Below, in pieces: positions 2,664 to 25,680 of a stretch of 64,000 bases of DNA. The number at the start of each line of letters is the position of its first letter. Position 1 is the first letter of the stretch. The position numbers were made by a program, and so were the translations under genes. This stretch comes from Granulicella rosea (GTDB lineage: Bacteria; Acidobacteriota; Terriglobia; Terriglobales; Acidobacteriaceae), in NCBI RefSeq assembly GCF_900188085.1, contig NZ_FZOU01000003.1, forward strand, positions 62,001 through 126,000. Direction: 5' to 3'. Below the pieces are notes generated by a model. That model had not been told where the DNA came from. It was given only the letters and a program-made list of their open reading frames with translations, and did not search any database.

Positions 2664-5090
2664 TTAGCGGGTGTATTCCTGCGGGATGATCGTGTCCGGC
2701 ACGGGCTTCTTGCGCTTCCGTTTCACCGGCGGGGCGGAGCTGGGCGGCTTGCGTTTGCCGTTGCTGCGCTTCTTTGCCAGCGTCGGTTCGACTACGGCGC
2801 GCATCCAGTAGTCGCCCTGCGCGTCGACCTCGATGCCGTGGACCTCGCGCTCGAAGCCGGGGAAGCGCTTGCCGAACTCCTCGTACGCCAGGATCAGTTT
2901 GACGACGGGCGAATCGATCGCGCCCAGCCGCTCGCCCGGCATCGACAGCGGAATGCCCGGTGGGTAGGGAACGAGCATGACGGCGGCGATGCGGCCGGCG
3001 ATGTCCGAGAACTTTACCTTCTCGGTCTCGTTGCGCAACAGCCTCTGGTAGGTCTGGGCGGGGGTCAGCACCTGTTCGGGGTCGACCTCGCAGGCATCCT
3101 CGACCAGGTCGACCAACTGCAGCTCGAGCATGGCGGCGTGCATCTCGTCCGACAGCTCCTTGAGCGTGACGTTGCGGTAGCGATGCGGGAAGCGCGCGAC
3201 CAGCTCGGGCAGCGCCTCGTCCAGAGTGGCTTCGGAGTCGTAGAGACGCTTGAACTCGAAGAGATTTTCAAGCAGACTGCCCCATTTACCCTTCGACGTG
3301 CCGACCGAGAAGAGCACCAGCACGGTGTAGTCGCCGGTGCGGGCGATCTCCACGCGGCGGGCGTCGAGGAACTCCGTCAGGATCGCCGCCGGAATGCCCC
3401 AGCCGGAGACATTGCCCTGCGCGTCCACGCCCGGCGTCAGAATGGTCACCTTGGTCGGGTCGAGCATGCAGTAGTCGTCCGCGACATCGTCGTCGTCGAA
3501 GCCGTGCCACTCCTCGCCCGGTTTCAGCGTCCAGCAGGAGGCGTTCTCGGCCAGCAGGTCGTCGGGCGCTTCTTCAAAGATATAGGTAAGCTCGGTCTTC
3601 GGATCGGTGACGATATCGGGCTGGAAGAGCCGGAAGAACCAGCCGTCGCCGTTGTGCTCGGCCGCGCGCAGGCGGTGCGCGATCGACGACATGGCCTTGC
3701 GGAAGCTGACTGCGTCCTGAATCGTCTCGTCCATCAGGGTCGGACCGGCGGGCTCGTCCATCATCGCGGCGGCGACGTCGAGCGACGCGATCAGCGGGTA
3801 GAAGGGCGAGGTCGTGCCATGCATCATGAAGGCTTCGTTGAACTGGTCGAAGTCGAGCGGCGCGCGCGGGCTCAGCTTCACATGCACCATCGAACCCATG
3901 GAGAACGCCGCCAGCATCTTGTGCGTGGACTGCACGGCGAAGAGCTGTGGACGGTCCGGCATGTCGTCCGGCACGTCCATCGCAAAGCGGCCCTTGTAGA
4001 TGTGGTGGAACTTCGCATAGGCGTACCAGGCCTCGTCGAAGTGGATGCGCGGTACGGACTTGGCCAGCTCGGTCGCGACCTTGTTCACGTCGTAACAGAG
4101 GCCGTCGTAGGTGGAGTTGGTGACTGCGGCGTAGGTCGGGGTCTGCGAGTGCGCGCCGGCCGAGAAGGGGCTGTTCTTGATGAGTTCCTTGATCGACTCC
4201 GGGCTGAACCGCTTCAGCGGCACCAGGCCGATCATGCCGTAGCCGTTGCGCGTGGGCGTCAGGTAGACGGGGCGGGCGCCGGTGACGGTCAGCGAGTGGC
4301 AGATCGACTTGTGGCAGTTCGCGTCGGCGAGGACGATGTCGTCCTGCCCAATCACGCCGTGGCCGACGATCTGGTTGGAGGTGCTCGATCCGCCGAGGAC
4401 GTAGAAGGTCCAGTCCGCGCCGAAGATGCGCGCCGCGTTGCGCTCGCTCTCGCCCGGAGGCCCGATGTGGTCGAGCCACGAGCCGAGCGGCGCGGTGGAG
4501 ATGCCGAGGTCCGAGCGCAGCAGGTTTTCGCCGAAGAAGCGGTGGAACTCCATGCCGACGGGGTGCTTCAGGTAGGCGACGCCGCCCATGTGGCCGGGCG
4601 CGTCCCAGGAGTACGCGCCCTGGTCGGTGTACTTCTTCAGCTCGCGGAAGTAGGGCGGCAGCAACTGCTCGTGATAGCGCTCGACGGCGAAGTCGACGCG
4701 GTTGGCGATGAAGGCCGGCGTGTCGCCGAAGAGGTGGATGTACTCGTGTACCTGCTTGACGACTTCGAGCGGCAGGTCGGAGACCAGCGTGCGGTCGGCG
4801 ATCAGGAAGATCGGAATCTTCTTGTTGCGGCTACGAATGGCGCGGATGATCTTCAGCGCGGCGCGTTCGTCGAACTGGTGATCGCCGGCGAGATCCCAGT
4901 CCAGCAGGATGGCCGAGTGCGATGGGTCGGACTTCACAAGCGATAGGCCGTCCTCAGGCGTTGACGTACGGACGACCTCGTAGCCTTCTTCGCCGATCGC
5001 GTCGACGAGACGCTCCATGGCGCGGTCCGACACGGAGTCGGTGCGCCCTACTTCGCTTGCAATCATCAATACCCAACGGCCTTCGTTCAT
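2664..5090 (-). CDS. Orn/Lys/Arg decarboxylase, PLP-dependent fold type I
   Basis: The 808-residue protein has the layout of inducible bacterial basic amino acid decarboxylases. A receiver-like wing domain (about 1-145) is followed by the PLP-binding core and a C-terminal domain. Visible motifs are the DAPGHMGG segment (163-170), GGSSTSNQ (233-240), FDEAW with the aspartate expected to contact the PLP nitrogen (D352), and QSTHKML with the Schiff-base lysine K391. Such enzymes convert lysine, arginine or ornithine to the polyamine plus CO2, for acid resistance or polyamine synthesis. Which substrate is used cannot be read from the sequence. A lysine/arginine/proline-rich tail (last 40 residues) is unusual. 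The gene is monocistronic and divergent from the VWFA gene at 5227. Confidence 0.93.
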   Translation of the reverse strand: MNEGRWVLMIASEVGRTDSVSDRAMERLVDAIGEEGYEVVRTSTPEDGLSLVKSDPSHSAILLDWDLAGDHQFDERAALKIIRAIRSRNKKIPIFLIADRTLVSDLPLEVVKQVHEYIHLFGDTPAFIANRVDFAVERYHEQLLPPYFRELKKYTDQGAYSWDAPGHMGGVAYLKHPVGMEFHRFFGENLLRSDLGISTAPLGSWLDHIGPPGESERNAARIFGADWTFYVLGGSSTSNQIVGHGVIGQDDIVLADANCHKSICHSLTVTGARPVYLTPTRNGYGMIGLVPLKRFSPESIKELIKNSPFSAGAHSQTPTYAAVTNSTYDGLCYDVNKVATELAKSVPRIHFDEAWYAYAKFHHIYKGRFAMDVPDDMPDRPQLFAVQSTHKMLAAFSMGSMVHVKLSPRAPLDFDQFNEAFMMHGTTSPFYPLIASLDVAAAMMDEPAGPTLMDETIQDAVSFRKAMSSIAHRLRAAEHNGDGWFFRLFQPDIVTDPKTELTYIFEEAPDDLLAENASCWTLKPGEEWHGFDDDDVADDYCMLDPTKVTILTPGVDAQGNVSGWGIPAAILTEFLDARRVEIARTGDYTVLVLFSVGTSKGKWGSLLENLFEFKRLYDSEATLDEALPELVARFPHRYRNVTLKELSDEMHAAMLELQLVDLVEDACEVDPEQVLTPAQTYQRLLRNETEKVKFSDIAGRIAAVMLVPYPPGIPLSMPGERLGAIDSPVVKLILAYEEFGKRFPGFEREVHGIEVDAQGDYWMRAVVEPTLAKKRSNGKRKPPSSAPPVKRKRKKPVPDTIIPQEYTR

Positions 5091-5226
5091 CTCACCTCGT
5101 GTTTGTTGCGACGTTTTAGTTTATCGCGGATGCGTTACGAAACTGTGCATAGGGCCAGAACGTCTGAAATTGCATGCCAGTTCGGTTTTCGCCGTGCTAG
5201 ATTGGCTGGGAATCGCCGGAGTCGCC

Positions 5227-6921
5227 ATGTTCGCGTCCAAACTTCGCTTTTTGCCTCTGCTCCTCGTCTGCGTTTCGACCTTCCTGACCGCACAGCAGCC
5301 TGCGCCCGCGCCCGCTCCGGACAAGATTCCCACACTGAAGATTACCTCCCGCGAGGTCGTGCTCGATGTGCTGGTGCTCGACAAGAAGGGGCATTCGATT
5401 CAGGGGCTGAAGGCGGGCGACTTCCAGGTGGTCGAGGATGGCGCGCCGCAGGTGGTCAGAGCCGTGAGCGAGCATCGCGCGCTGACCCCGGAAGAGGTCG
5501 CCAGACTTGCACCGGATCCGCTTGCGCCGAACGAGTTCACGAACTACGCGCCCGCCGGCAATACCAACTCGGTCTCCGTCATCCTCATCGACGCGCTCGA
5601 CAGCCCGACCACCGCGCAGATGTATCTGCGCCAGCAACTGATCGCGTTCATGAAGTCCATGCCGCCGGGGAACACCTTCGCCATCTTCCAGATGGACCGC
5701 CGGATGCATCTGGTGCAGGGCTTTACCTCGGACCCGCAGGTGCTGCTGAAGGCGGTCGAAGGCAAACGCGACGAGATCAGCCTGCCTGCCAATCTGAACA
5801 GCGCCACGCGCGAGGCGATGATGCACGTCGGGTTGAAGATGATGGGGCAGTATCTGGCCGGCTTCAGCGGGCGAAAGAACCTGATCTGGTTTACCGGGAG
5901 CGTTCCGCACGAGGTCTTCAGCCTGACCGGCAATCCCTTTCCCGATTCCGTCGACTTCGACAATATGCGCGCGCGATTTGCGAACGCGCTCTCGCTCAGC
6001 CGGGTCGCGGTCTATCCGGTCGACGACCGGGGTCTGGAGGTCTTTCGGGAGCACGAGTACAGCCATGCGGTGCTCGACGAGATCGCCGAGAGAACGGGCG
6101 GCCGATCCTTCCACGACACGAACGGCCTGAAGGAGGCGCTCGCGCAGATCACGGAGACCGGGTCGAACTACTACACGCTCGCGTTTTCGCCGACCAATCC
6201 CGTCTGGCTTGCGCATAAGCGGCATCTCACGATCACCGTCGCTGGCAGGGAGCACGCCACGCTGCTCTACCGGCATGTCTACTTTGCGCGCAGCGGCCGA
6301 AAGGCCTACTGGAAGAAGCACGCCCAGGACAACATCGCCGAGTTGAAACCCCCGCCGCCGCCCGCCGATATCGTCCAGACTGCGGGAGATGGTTTGGACG
6401 CGGCGCTCGAACTGGGCTCCATGATCTCCGGCGAGCTGCCGTTCCGGCTGAGTGCGATGCCCGCGCCCAGGCCGTTGAAGCTGGCGAAGGACGCGCCCTG
6501 GCCGAAGGATAACTACCTCGAACCTTCGCTTCGGACGAAGCCGTTTCGAGAGTTCGAGCTGCTGTATACGGTCGATCCGCACAACGTCGGCTTCACCCAG
6601 ACCGAGGACGGCGTCTCCCACGCGCAGTTGGAGTTTCTGGTCGCCGTCTACGACGCCCAGGGGGCGATGGTGAACTCTCTGAAGACGACGCGGGTGAGCG
6701 AAATCGGCGACGCAAACTATCGCCGGATGCTGGAAAGCGGGACGAAGCTGACTCTGCGCCAGACCATCGCCGTGCCGGAGAAGGGCAACTACTTCCTGCG
6801 TCTGGTCGTCCACAATCCCGACGCCGATCAGACCGGGTCGCTCGAAATTCCGGTCGACAACATACAGCGTGGCGTCGCGGGACCGGGGCAGCAGCTCATC
6901 TCGTCCAGCCAACTTCCCTGA
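5227..6921 (+). CDS. Secreted VWFA-related acidobacterial protein
   Basis: The 564-residue protein starts at an ATG preceded by GGAG six bases upstream. In-frame upstream codons lie antisense in the decarboxylase gene and were excluded. An N-terminal signal peptide (about 1-22, ending FLTAQ) and a proline/alanine linker lead to the family signature: a REVVLDVLVLDKKG strand with KAGDFQVVEDG, then a VWA-like domain. The metal site is degenerate (IDALDSP instead of DxSxS). The C-terminal third is a separate beta-rich region. The family is known as an acidobacterial expansion (TIGR03436) of unknown function. Export and a protein-binding role are inferred. A lipoprotein gene follows 53 bases later and may be co-transcribed. 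Confidence 0.88.
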   Translation: MFASKLRFLPLLLVCVSTFLTAQQPAPAPAPDKIPTLKITSREVVLDVLVLDKKGHSIQGLKAGDFQVVEDGAPQVVRAVSEHRALTPEEVARLAPDPLAPNEFTNYAPAGNTNSVSVILIDALDSPTTAQMYLRQQLIAFMKSMPPGNTFAIFQMDRRMHLVQGFTSDPQVLLKAVEGKRDEISLPANLNSATREAMMHVGLKMMGQYLAGFSGRKNLIWFTGSVPHEVFSLTGNPFPDSVDFDNMRARFANALSLSRVAVYPVDDRGLEVFREHEYSHAVLDEIAERTGGRSFHDTNGLKEALAQITETGSNYYTLAFSPTNPVWLAHKRHLTITVAGREHATLLYRHVYFARSGRKAYWKKHAQDNIAELKPPPPPADIVQTAGDGLDAALELGSMISGELPFRLSAMPAPRPLKLAKDAPWPKDNYLEPSLRTKPFREFELLYTVDPHNVGFTQTEDGVSHAQLEFLVAVYDAQGAMVNSLKTTRVSEIGDANYRRMLESGTKLTLRQTIAVPEKGNYFLRLVVHNPDADQTGSLEIPVDNIQRGVAGPGQQLISSSQLP

Positions 6922-23148: not shown

Positions 23149-24213
23149 TTACTTGCGTACGGCGTATTCGTCCAGCAGCACGGTGATGAGCGCGGCGGTG
23201 GGTACGGCTACGAGCGCGCCGACGATGCCGGCCAGCGCGGTGCCGATGAGCAGCGAGACCAGCACGGTCAGACCCATCAGGTTGACCGACGAGCGCATGA
23301 TTCGCGGCGTCAGCACCGCGTTTTCGAGGTTCACATAGATGCCGTAGAAGATCAGCACGCCGGCCATCTTGGTCCAGCTATCGAGCGCCGCGACGCCCGC
23401 CGCGAGAATAATCGTAATCACGCCGCCGGCGATGGGGATGATGTTCAGCAGACCCATCAGCGCGCCCAGCAGGATGAAGTAGCGTACATGCAGCAGGCCG
23501 AAGACGGTCAGGCTGCAGACGCCGAGCGTCAGCATGAGCAGACCCTGGCCGATCAGCCACTTGCTCATCTTTACCTCGGCCTTCTTCAGCGTCAGGTCCA
23601 GCCGGATGCGGCTTTCGCGACCGAAGAGCGAGAGAAAGAAAGCATAGGCGTGCTCGCCTTCGAGCATGAAGTAGATACAGAGGAAGGCGCAGGTGAGGAT
23701 GTCGAAGACGTGCGAGAGCCAGTTGGGCAGCGATGAAAAGACGTACGAGCCGACCGCGGCGGCGGCGTTTTCGGCCTTGGCGGCGATGGTGTCGACGCCG
23801 ATCTGGTTCGCGATGGGCAGCTTCTTCAGCTTGCCGACGGCGGTGGGGATGCGCTTCGGCAGCTCGGTCATGAACTCGTGCAGATCGCGCATGACCGGCG
23901 GCAGACCGATGGTGAAGAAGAGCGTCAGGGCGGCGAGCACGCCGACGATCAGGATGACGATGGCGGCCGCGCGCGGAAGCTGCCGGCGGCCGAAGTGCAG
24001 ATGCCGGATCTTGTCCACGATGGGCATCAGCACGACGGCAAAGAGCGCGCTGACGTAGAGCATCTCCAGCTCTTTGGTCAGATGCCAGGCGAGAAAGAGC
24101 AGCAGGATGACGGTAAAGAAGAAGACGATGTTGGCCCGCGTGGCCTGCTCCCTGACCTTGAGGTCGGTTTCGGGGCTCCGGGTTGCGTTTTCGGCTTCGT
24201 TCGGCGTGGTCAA
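23149..24213 (-). CDS. AI-2E family transporter (YdiK/TqsA type)
   Basis: The 354-residue membrane protein has about seven to eight hydrophobic segments and family landmarks: IVFFFTVILLLFLAWHL, PNWLSHVFDILTCAFLCIYFMLEG, then LLGALMGLLNIIPIAGGVITIILA and NAVLTPRIMRSSVNLMGLTVLVSLLIGTALAGIVGALVAVP. Members export small molecules, in some cases autoinducer-2 or Na+. Substrate is unknown here. The start is a TTG at 24213 with CAGGAG seven bases upstream. The longer open frame to 24450 overlaps aroK in another frame and was rejected. Confidence 0.88.
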   Translation of the reverse strand: MTTPNEAENATRSPETDLKVREQATRANIVFFFTVILLLFLAWHLTKELEMLYVSALFAVVLMPIVDKIRHLHFGRRQLPRAAAIVILIVGVLAALTLFFTIGLPPVMRDLHEFMTELPKRIPTAVGKLKKLPIANQIGVDTIAAKAENAAAAVGSYVFSSLPNWLSHVFDILTCAFLCIYFMLEGEHAYAFFLSLFGRESRIRLDLTLKKAEVKMSKWLIGQGLLMLTLGVCSLTVFGLLHVRYFILLGALMGLLNIIPIAGGVITIILAAGVAALDSWTKMAGVLIFYGIYVNLENAVLTPRIMRSSVNLMGLTVLVSLLIGTALAGIVGALVAVPTAALITVLLDEYAVRK

Positions 24214-24272
24214 GTCGTTCTCCTGCAAGGGGCTTTCTCCGTTGGATGCAGAAAAATCCGCCGCGCCAAAGA

Positions 24273-24854
24273 CTATTTGCGAGTCTGCAATGAGTGTACG
24301 AGGAGGTCGACCGTCTCGCGCGGGGAAAGCGCGGCGGTGTCGACGATGAGTCGCGCGAGCCGCCGGTAGTGCGGCTGACGCTGGTGGAAGCGCGCCTCGG
24401 CGATGGCGGGGTCGGCCAGCACGGGGCGCGCGATGGCCTGCAGGACGCATCGGTCGAAGAGGACGGGGAACGGCGCGTCGAGGAAGATGGTGTGAGTGCC
24501 GGGCGTCTGCTCGATCAGCAGGCGGTTGGTCAACTGCTCCGGAGCGCCGCCGCCAAGGGACAGGACGACGTTCCTGCGGCCGAGCGCGTTGGCGAGTGCG
24601 GAGGACTCCAGCAGCCGGAAGTGCGGCTCGCCGTGATTGGCGAAGAGATCGCGGACGGAGGAGCCGGAGCGCGCCTCGATGTGCGCGTCGAGATCGAGAA
24701 ACTCCCAGCCCAGCCGCTCGGCCAGCAAGGCGCCGACGGTCGATTTGCCCGAGCCCATGAAGCCCGTGAGGACGATGCGACGGATGGTGGGCGGGATGGC
24801 GGGGTTCGTCTGGAGTTCGGGCTGGGTCTGGATGTCGGTTTGCGTGGCGGTCAT
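24273..24854 (-). CDS. aroK: Shikimate kinase
   Basis: The 193-residue protein has Walker A GFMGSGKST (31-39), FLDLDAHIEARSG with the shikimate-binding Asp, FRLLESSAL, and the LSLGGGAP loop. It phosphorylates shikimate with ATP in aromatic amino acid synthesis. The first 25 residues (Thr/Gln/Pro-rich) are an unconserved extension. The gene heads a minus-strand run with the AI-2E transporter, a YjbR protein and rsmE. Upstream on the same strand lie a small aromatic-rich frame (24962-25063) and a terminator (24899-24933), suggesting attenuation control. Confidence 0.93.
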   Translation of the reverse strand: MTATQTDIQTQPELQTNPAIPPTIRRIVLTGFMGSGKSTVGALLAERLGWEFLDLDAHIEARSGSSVRDLFANHGEPHFRLLESSALANALGRRNVVLSLGGGAPEQLTNRLLIEQTPGTHTIFLDAPFPVLFDRCVLQAIARPVLADPAIAEARFHQRQPHYRRLARLIVDTAALSPRETVDLLVHSLQTRK

Positions 24855-24898
24855 GTTGCGTCTCCGTTCAAGGTTACAACGCGGTTCTGGATTCGGCG

Positions 24899-24933
24899 CA
24901 AAGCAAAAGCCGCGACCTTGTGGGTCGCGGCTC
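24899..24933 (-). terminator. Intrinsic terminator between leader frame and aroK
   Basis: On the minus strand AGCCGCGACC and GGTCGCGGCT form a perfect ten-base stem with a five-base loop, followed by TTTTGCTTT. It lies 45 bases before the aroK ATG and 29 bases after the stop of the small leader frame. Its 5' arm GAGCCGCG is also complementary to CGCGGCTC in the leader frame, so an alternative fold is possible. Confidence 0.75.
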
Positions 24934-24961
24934 GGGTGGATGGGGTGAATGTTCTCGTGGA

Positions 24962-25063
24962 TCAGGAGACAGACACATTTCCAGCCGGAGCCGCGCTCCG
25001 CCAGTAGCTAAAGCAGCTAAAGGAGGCGTCGGCGAGGTGGAGACGTGCGTTCATTCTGTCCAT
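24962..25063 (-). CDS. Candidate aromatic leader peptide of aroK
   Basis: This 33-codon frame (30 codons if ATG 25054 is used) ends 107 bases before aroK. Residues 15-21 read FSCFSYW, giving four aromatic residues in seven: two Phe, Tyr and Trp. The codons just after Trp contain GGAGC-GCG-GCTCC, which can fold on itself, and CGCGGCTC, which can pair with the terminator's 5' arm. This is the classical layout of ribosome-mediated attenuation. No good ribosome-binding site is seen. TTGCAA and TGTACT upstream could be a promoter giving a nearly leaderless mRNA. Function is inferred only. Confidence 0.45.
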   Translation of the reverse strand: MDRMNARLHLADASFSCFSYWRSAAPAGNVSVS

Positions 25064-25133
25064 GAGAGTACATCGGCGGGTGCAAGGGTTGCAAATGGTT
25101 TTCGATCTAGAATGAGTGCGGAGTGATTTTGCC

Positions 25134-25442
25134 ATGGGTCTGAGCGACGAGACGTTTGAGGTGATGTGTCCGGATTGCGGGGGGATGCTGACGATCGACC
25201 CGGTGACGCGGTCAATCGTGGCGCACAAGTCCGCGCCGAAGAAGAAGATGTTCGAGGACTTCGGCGAGGCCGCGAAGGCGCTGCGCGAGGCCGACCAGCG
25301 GCGCGACTCGCTGTTTGCCCAGAGTGTGAACGCGCAGAAGAACTCGCAGGAGCTGCTGTCGAAGAAGTTCGCCGATGCGGTGAAGAAGGCGAAAGAGACG
25401 CCGATGACGGGCAAGCCGCTCAGGGATTTCGACCTGGATTAG
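25134..25442 (+). CDS. Small protein with zinc-ribbon-like start
   Basis: The 102-residue protein begins with EVMCPDCGGMLTIDP, a single CxxC knuckle, followed by a charged helical region (FEDFGEAAKALREADQRRDSLFAQ) rich in Lys and Glu that could form a coiled coil. No second CxxC is present, so metal binding would need dimerisation. No named family is recognised. It is divergent from the aroK leader region, with 70 bases between. Confidence 0.7.
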   Translation: MGLSDETFEVMCPDCGGMLTIDPVTRSIVAHKSAPKKKMFEDFGEAAKALREADQRRDSLFAQSVNAQKNSQELLSKKFADAVKKAKETPMTGKPLRDFDLD

Positions 25443-25467
25443 GGTTGTGTCGTCTTCAGGAGTTCGT

Positions 25468-25680
25468 ATGACAGCGCTTTTCCGATCCTTCATCGCGGTC
25501 TGCGCGGCTTTTGTCGCGACGGTGATCTGCATCGTCGAGCGGCATTTTTACGTGACGATCTCGCGGCCTTCGACGTGGGTCAATCCGTTTCAGCACAAGT
25601 GCGGCCTGCTGGCCGTAATGTGTCTGACGTGGATGACATTGGAACTGATTGGGCTTGGCCTGAAGGTGGAGGCACGATGA
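25468..25680 (+). CDS. Small membrane protein
   Basis: The 70-residue protein starts at an ATG with CAGGAG seven bases upstream. Hydrophobic segments SFIAVCAAFVATVICIV and GLLAVMCLTWMTLELIGLGL suggest two transmembrane helices. No family is recognised. The stop overlaps the start of the following membrane-protein gene by four bases (ATGA), implying coupled translation and perhaps a complex. Confidence 0.6.
   Translation: MTALFRSFIAVCAAFVATVICIVERHFYVTISRPSTWVNPFQHKCGLLAVMCLTWMTLELIGLGLKVEAR

Follow-up and report, generated by a model that had tools for sequence, protein, structure and literature searches.

Ribosome-mediated attenuators are usually discussed as features of single operons, and those of Escherichia coli follow a scheme of 1:2, 2:3, and 3:4 pairings. 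In the E. coli pheA (pheL) and trp (trpL) systems, a leader peptide containing the regulatory amino acid places attenuation under the control of charged tRNA, and in Corynebacterium glutamicum the AroR leader, with the residues Phe-Tyr-Phe, precedes the DAHP synthase gene aroF, acts by ribosome stalling, and responds to limitation of Phe and not of Tyr (both from the available excerpt of PMC11802643). Computed trp attenuators combining Trp codons with GC-rich terminators have been reported for Corynebacterium and Streptomyces, including two in C. diphtheriae, one of which lies before trpB2A (excerpt of PMC1262725). Neither an aroK attenuator nor an acidobacterial attenuator of aromatic genes was found in one open-access library, a scope that leaves most subscription papers outside, and the excerpts of PMC4833913 and PMC2965389 name neither; a preliminary description of the present locus likewise knew of no aroK attenuator of such a kind.

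The locus lies in a window, meaning the whole stretch of Granulicella rosea DNA that was analysed (64,000 nucleotides), where the element in front of aroK is very likely a ribosome-mediated transcription attenuator and a member of a family dispersed over the aromatic pathway of Acidobacteriota. The features of the locus are listed below.

24273-24854, minus strand: aroK, the regulated gene, encoding shikimate kinase (Pfam PF01202 match, E = 2.3e-36)
24861-24866, minus strand: CGGAGA, a Shine-Dalgarno-like site of aroK, outside the switch; similar stretches were seen by eye in many aroK loci
24907-24933, minus strand: intrinsic terminator GAGCCGCGACC-CACAA-GGTCGCGGCTT, followed by TTGCTTTG, with the T-rich tail at 24906-24899
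24933-24926, minus strand: arm 3, GAGCCGCG, overlapping the 5' side of the terminator
24988-24995, minus strand: arm 2, CGCGGCTC, whose partner is arm 3 (direct reading and covariation in relatives)
24987-24999, minus strand: 1:2 hairpin, GGAGC (24999-24995) with GCTCC (24991-24987), immediately 3' of the Trp codon
25001-25021, minus strand: sense codons TTT AGC TGC TTT AGC TAC TGG (Phe, Phe, Tyr, and Trp), read directly
24962-25054, minus strand: leader peptide ORF MNARLHLADASFSCFSYWRSAAPAGNVSVS*, 30 codons and a stop, read directly and with a counterpart in relatives
25065-25094, minus strand: promoter-like pair TTGCAA (25094-25089) and TACTCT (25070-25065), spacer 18 nt, 7 of 12 consensus letters

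The three mutually exclusive pairings and the terminator before aroK were each located where the preliminary description had placed them, its assignment of aroK to shikimate kinase agrees with the Pfam match, and the aromatic stretch FSCFSYW to which it drew attention is encoded at 25021-25001 on the minus strand. The 33-codon frame that it reported also exists, running from the ATG at 25063 to 24962 and ending 107 b upstream of aroK, whose ATG is at 24854; however, the start codon is likely to be the second ATG, at 25054, giving 30 codons, because the promoter-like pair ends 10 nt before it and the ATG at 25063 would lie upstream of the predicted transcript start. If the weak TTGCAA/TACTCT pair is a promoter, the transcript would begin near 25058; a stricter promoter scan of the region (9/12 threshold) gave no match. 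The upstream neighbour is a divergent gene at 25116-25442 on the plus strand, which leaves the 260-b gap to aroK on the minus strand. This small gene on the other side of the gap encodes a CxxC motif; by tblastn, only 4 of the 60 genus loci, that of the window among them, have a related gene close to aroK. Directly 3' of aroK is a gene for a membrane protein (23149-24369, minus strand) that is permease-like by eye and is possibly co-transcribed.

The RNA from 25063 to 24855 was computed at -75.5 kcal/mol, compared with -59.3 kcal/mol for shuffled sequences (z = -3.9), and 0 of 200 shuffles were as stable. One terminator-like site, the named one, occurs in positions 24700-25500; since shuffled sequences contain 0.5 such sites on average (sd 0.8), the terminator of the window is unremarkable by itself. 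What sets the leader apart from chance is its recurrence, since all 60 genus loci compared have it before aroK.

The proposed mechanism is as follows. RNA polymerase would start only a few bases upstream of the leader ATG, with a ribosome translating the peptide rich in Phe, Tyr, and Trp. With charged tRNA for Phe, Tyr, or Trp scarce, the ribosome would halt at these codons and cover arm 1; arm 2 (GCGGC) would then be free to pair with arm 3 (GCCGC), the terminator would not form, and aroK would be transcribed. With aromatic amino acids plentiful, the ribosome would reach the stop codon, 1:2 would re-form behind it, 3:4 would form, and transcription would presumably stop; the induction ratio likewise belongs to the presumed part of the mechanism. 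Leaders of this kind very probably turn acidobacterial aromatic genes on when aromatic amino acids are short. This is the logic of trp- and phe-type attenuators that the preliminary description had proposed, and the conservation, covariation, and codon tuning given below support it; gene set, codon tuning, and covariation are themselves established at the level of sequence. None of the findings that the preliminary description had named as refuting turned up in the sequence comparisons.

Conservation before aroK was assessed in relatives, in which the preliminary description had suggested looking for the small frame with its aromatic codons and for covariation in the three stems. The gene was located in 60 of 62 genomes of the same genus, and the leader ORF, with its aromatic codons, the arms, and the terminator precede it in all 60 loci (58 by script, plus L050 and L060, the latter by eye and with a GTG start). 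The script asked for F, then an aromatic-like residue, then W, C, or G. In other genera of the same family, the leader was present in 22 of 78 loci (L099 and L104-L180), which were picked by AroK score and genus spread from 223 matched genomes outside the genus. By genus, it was found in 12/12 loci of g32, 8/11 of g64 (3 lacking it), 1/1 of g52, and 1/1 of g67, and in 0/53 of the loci examined in other genera. On this distribution aroK is a lineage-limited target of the leader. In aroK loci lacking it, another gene often seems, by eye, to lie close up against aroK. The leader is also carried by public genomes, among them Edaphobacter aggregans DSM 19364 (L313) and the Acidobacteriaceae bacteria KBS 146, TAA 166, and dw_441, and it was present in the six nearest of 16 public relative loci (6/6). 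An acidobacterial aroK with the leader, its peptide identical to that of L059, also occurs on contig CAJCHN010000120.1 (L314), filed as a Rhodanobacteraceae bacterium, which is probably a mislabelled or mixed assembly. Four loci (L089, L093, L095, and L096) carry an extra GTCATTCTG-type stretch between the terminator and aroK that resembles a repeated element. Among leaders L039-L097, the ORF ends in differing frames in sister species (MHL* versus ACISE..*) while the letters CTCTGA are often unchanged; at the 3' end of the leader, RNA constraint seems to prevail over peptide constraint.

Related leaders before other genes were searched for with two covariance models, R1, built from aroK leaders alone, and R2, which includes the trpB leader of the same G. 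rosea genome. In 299 genomes of the family, R1 gave matches at E <= 0.01 in 176 genomes and 47 of 79 genera, some of them due to chance at that cut-off. Forty matches away from aroK, picked for genus spread among the matches listed and with representatives checked against Pfam, lay before trpB (11), DAHP synthase (20), or chorismate mutase (9), and none before any other gene. An aromatic-rich small ORF was present at the expected place in all 40, that of L239 being shortened by a stop, and in 6 of the 9 chorismate mutase loci a prephenate dehydratase or DAHP synthase gene follows in the same stretch. The second member in the genome of the window (E = 1.8e-10 with R1; 3.2e-13 with R2, in which it is included) encodes MNNSFSPSFTNRFWRAQYWAAMAASTV and stands before trpB-trpA-DAHP synthase. 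The genome thus has two switches, one over tryptophan synthase together with the enzyme that opens the pathway and one over shikimate kinase, and the control of a single pathway enzyme envisaged in the preliminary description has to be given up, the same element preceding these and other acidobacterial aromatic genes. In that second locus (L331, G000:C18:93500-101500, minus strand), the trpB leader is at about 5072-5245, and trpC and trpF lie upstream of it; trpA, trpC, and trpF of this genome were identified from reading of translations. A third model match in the genome (G000:C3:258411-258595, E = 2.8e-4) resembles, by eye, a plain terminator after another gene and was rejected. No such leader was seen by eye in about 500 b upstream of prephenate dehydratase in this genome, and a DNA similarity search of the genome with the locus returned itself and 23 matches, all with E of 0.6 or worse.

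In 347 genomes of the phylum, R2 gave matches at E <= 0.001 in 46, of which 15 are outside the family. Twenty of these matches were fetched (14 outside the family and 6 inside), and 15 have an aromatic leader and an aromatic gene (10 outside and 5 inside; the leader of L296 is cut by the contig end). Leaders before chorismate mutase/prephenate dehydratase include FYFAFTYRFFF and FSFYFYF in family f21 and FYFYFYF in f17, and leaders before DAHP synthase occur outside the family in f14 and f23. Five matches with E from 2e-4 to 9e-4 (L301, L302, L303, L305, and L309) have neither an aromatic leader nor an aromatic gene and were rejected as chance-like. In L293 and L304, arms 2, 3, and 4 are jointly changed from the GCGGC/GCCGC/GCGGC of the family, so that the attenuator logic appears to be kept where the letters are not; leaders of the other families (f14, f17, f21, and f23) may be homologous to those of the family or convergent with them. 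A leader in L300 (positions 150-350), MNTGRQYFYFYYFYLK, stands before DAHP synthase in a distant acidobacterium (f14) and has two tandem terminator-like hairpins by eye; with its different arm layout, it is perhaps an independent invention.

Covariation was counted in two alignments, in which kinship among leaders inflates every count. Alignment A1 comprised 60 non-redundant aroK leaders out of 81 found by script (81 including five duplicate loci of the genus). Alignment A2 comprised 56 leaders of four target classes out of 65 prepared, without nine aroK leaders (L039, L057, L059, L067, L072, L074, L090, L094, and L115), several of which come from groups where the pairing CCGCTAC:GTAGCGG is degenerate; L244, which is without a matched terminator end, was omitted. 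Six aroK leaders found by eye or by a second script (L050, L060, L106, L107, L114, and L122) are outside all alignments. In A1, 98.0% of terminator cells are paired, with 28 changes on both sides compared with 5.5 in shuffled alignments, and 6 of 11 pairs have such changes. The 2:3 antiterminator, exclusive with terminator 3:4 through the common arm 3, has 80.8% of its cells paired and 39 both-side changes compared with 21.0; the number of 2:3 pairs with a both-side change (9 versus 7.7) is not above that of shuffled alignments (122/500). Shifting the 2:3 arm by one column gave 35 both-side changes versus 39 and a score of 0.153 versus 0.168, with 45% of cells paired. When arms were swapped among 76 leaders, cognate 2:3 arms averaged -27.5 kcal/mol versus -24.4 for swapped ones, and cognate 1:2 arms -21.2 versus -19.3, each exceeded in 0 of 5000 permutations. 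Compensatory changes, kinship included, were thus seen in the terminator, in 2:3, and in 1:2.

The 1:2 hairpin of A2 consists of the seven pairs CCGCTAC:GTAGCGG, so that the Arg-Tyr codon pair CGC TAC itself serves as arm 1. The pair under the wobble base of the Tyr codon is C-G in 32 leaders, U-A in 8, and U-G in 1, and is unpaired in 15 (n = 56); in this alignment, synonymous change of the Tyr codon is matched in the opposite arm. Within the genus of the window, the main group has a degenerate form of this pairing and is predicted to use another 1:2, and the window has the short GGAGC:GCTCC at roughly the position of CCGCTAC:GTAGCGG in relatives. The preliminary description placed arm 1 just past the Trp codon, as it is in the window; many relatives have an arm 1 that runs over the Arg-Tyr codons themselves. 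The arm GCGG is conserved in reading frames that differ, namely phase 0 in 49/56 aroK leaders, phase 0 in 10 and phase 1 in 8 DAHP synthase leaders, and phase 1 in 6/9 chorismate mutase leaders, as expected of an RNA arm 3' of peptide-constrained codons. The codon-substitution ratio was set aside as proof of coding, being uninformative over 14 codons (dN/dS 0.76 in the leader frame and 1.14 and 0.77 in the alternative ones).

Sense codons were compared with the target genes. Counted over the distinct leader peptides of the family, Trp codons occur in 30/30 before trpB, 23/24 before DAHP synthase, and 0/11 before chorismate mutase/pheA (trpB versus chorismate mutase/pheA, Fisher 3e-10 with related leaders counted individually), and in all 60 non-redundant aroK leaders, a set found with a pattern favouring W. 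Outside the family, Trp is present before chorismate mutase/pheA in L293, L298, and L299. The aromatic codon nearest to arm 2, at a distance of 9 nt or more, is Phe in 9/9 leaders of chorismate mutase/pheA, Trp in 8/12 of trpB, and Phe in 14/18 of DAHP synthase, and in aroK leaders it is Trp in 33, Tyr in 20, and Phe in 6. The gap from this codon to arm 2 is 9-14 nt in 97 of 98 leaders under a rule that allowed 9-21 nt and so imposed the lower bound; 9-14 nt is about the reach of the leading edge of a ribosome, given the size of its footprint. Phe codons in the leaders are TTT in 207 cases and TTC in 102, compared with 24 and 55 in six genes of the window. Within the family, the codon counts indicate that sense codons follow the pathway branch of the target.

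Switching was computed for 98 leaders with a stall model in which all RNA 5' of the stalled ribosome is hidden and the probability of 2:3 pairing, P(2:3), is taken before the 3' arm is made; each stall was placed at an aromatic codon lying 9-21 nt upstream of arm 2, and L067 and L239 were skipped. Mean P(2:3) was 0.32 for free RNA, 0.74 with a stalled ribosome, and 0.25 with the ribosome at the stop codon. The stall raised P(2:3) by more than 0.2 in 52 of the 98 leaders, and an equal fall occurred in none. For the leader of the window, P(2:3) was about 1 in the free, stalled, and stop states, and for the trpB leader of the same genome it was near 0 in all states (0.03 when stalled). Equilibrium folding is silent for G. 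rosea because P(2:3) of both leaders is the same in every state, and as proof of switching in this genome it was discarded, since it does not discriminate. In complete transcripts, the mean terminator probability was 0.93 free and 0.84 stalled (0.999 and 0.907 for the window). Because the terminator prevails in the complete RNA whether or not the ribosome is stalled, the outcome must depend on the order of folding, as it does in classical attenuators.

A sigma-70-like pair with at least 7/12 consensus letters occurs upstream of the ATG in 86/100 leaders, compared with 27 in mononucleotide shuffles, and in 62 of these 86 the -10 box ends 8-10 nt before the leader ATG (10 nt in the window). Transcription starts 6-7 nt after a -10 box, so the leader mRNA would be almost leaderless, and we regard it as probably leaderless.

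Other readings of the locus were weighed against these data. The hairpin could be a plain terminator that ends a small RNA or an upstream transcript, with the aroK promoter downstream of it: a T-rich hairpin before a gene can be of that kind, about 50 b separate it from aroK, and the predicted promoter of the window is weak (7/12). Against this, the upstream gene at 25116-25442 is divergent, on the plus strand, most members have a promoter-like pair shortly before the leader ATG, and there is covariation between arms 2 and 3; we consider this reading highly improbable. A ligand-binding riboswitch or protein-binding leader in which the ORF is incidental would account for the strong conservation of RNA arms and terminator and is given the same very small probability. 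No Rfam family reached the cut-off: nothing was above the gathering score in 18 loci, and an E-value scan of the window region gave three matches with E from 1.1 to 4.8, far below cut-offs (the models in question bear the names T-box, riboswitch, Trp_leader, and Phe_leader). Against an incidental ORF, the +1 frame is closed over its span in 76 and the +2 frame in 60 of 100 leaders, the leader frame being open by selection, and aromatic codons account for 20-26% of the peptides and vary with the target gene.

Slightly less improbable, and still very unlikely, is nascent-chain arrest, in which the peptide F[ST]x(R/C)YW would itself arrest its ribosome when a free aromatic amino acid is present, as TnaC does, and not in response to uncharged tRNA. 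The peptide block is recognisable across targets and Arg-Tyr-Trp is frequent; the CCGCTAC:GTAGCGG pairing, however, accounts for the Arg-Tyr codons, the non-aromatic residues vary, and the C-terminus is unconserved, with differing end frames. The loss of Trp from the chorismate mutase/pheA leaders of the family fits codon sensing. 

For the attenuator itself, the best description is a set of leaders with common arms and target-fitted codons, placed at the beginning, midway, and on the branches of the aromatic pathway in the family. We somewhat favour its origin from one mobile attenuator cassette, copied before new genes with its arms kept and its codons rewritten according to the product of each target. 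If so, the cassette would stand over DAHP synthase, shikimate kinase, chorismate mutase, prephenate dehydratase, and tryptophan synthase in Acidobacteriota, a regulon of duplicated leader-peptide attenuators in place of a repressor. The series of leaders is natural material for following an attenuator as it is copied, refitted to new targets, and kept, and it provides a first regulatory hypothesis on amino-acid synthesis in a major soil phylum.

Compared with known systems, the acidobacterial leaders share with E. coli pheL and trpL a leader peptide containing the regulatory amino acid, a biosynthetic target, and, under the proposed mechanism, control by charged tRNA. They differ in that a sequence-related element occurs before aroK, trpB, DAHP synthase, and chorismate mutase/pheA, in that Phe, Tyr, and Trp codons occur together in the aroK leader, and in that the leader mRNA is probably leaderless and has no Rfam match. 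With C. glutamicum AroR, of which a study by Neshat (2014) is said to be the primary account, they have in common an aromatic leader peptide over DAHP synthase; unlike AroR, which belongs to another phylum, they also precede shikimate kinase, a target that the excerpt describing C. glutamicum does not mention. The trp attenuators of Corynebacterium and Streptomyces likewise combine Trp codons with terminators, but those in the excerpt of PMC1262725 concern Trp (and Leu) only and form no common element over shikimate-pathway genes. The mechanism in Acidobacteriota is classical, whereas the extent of the leader family is not.
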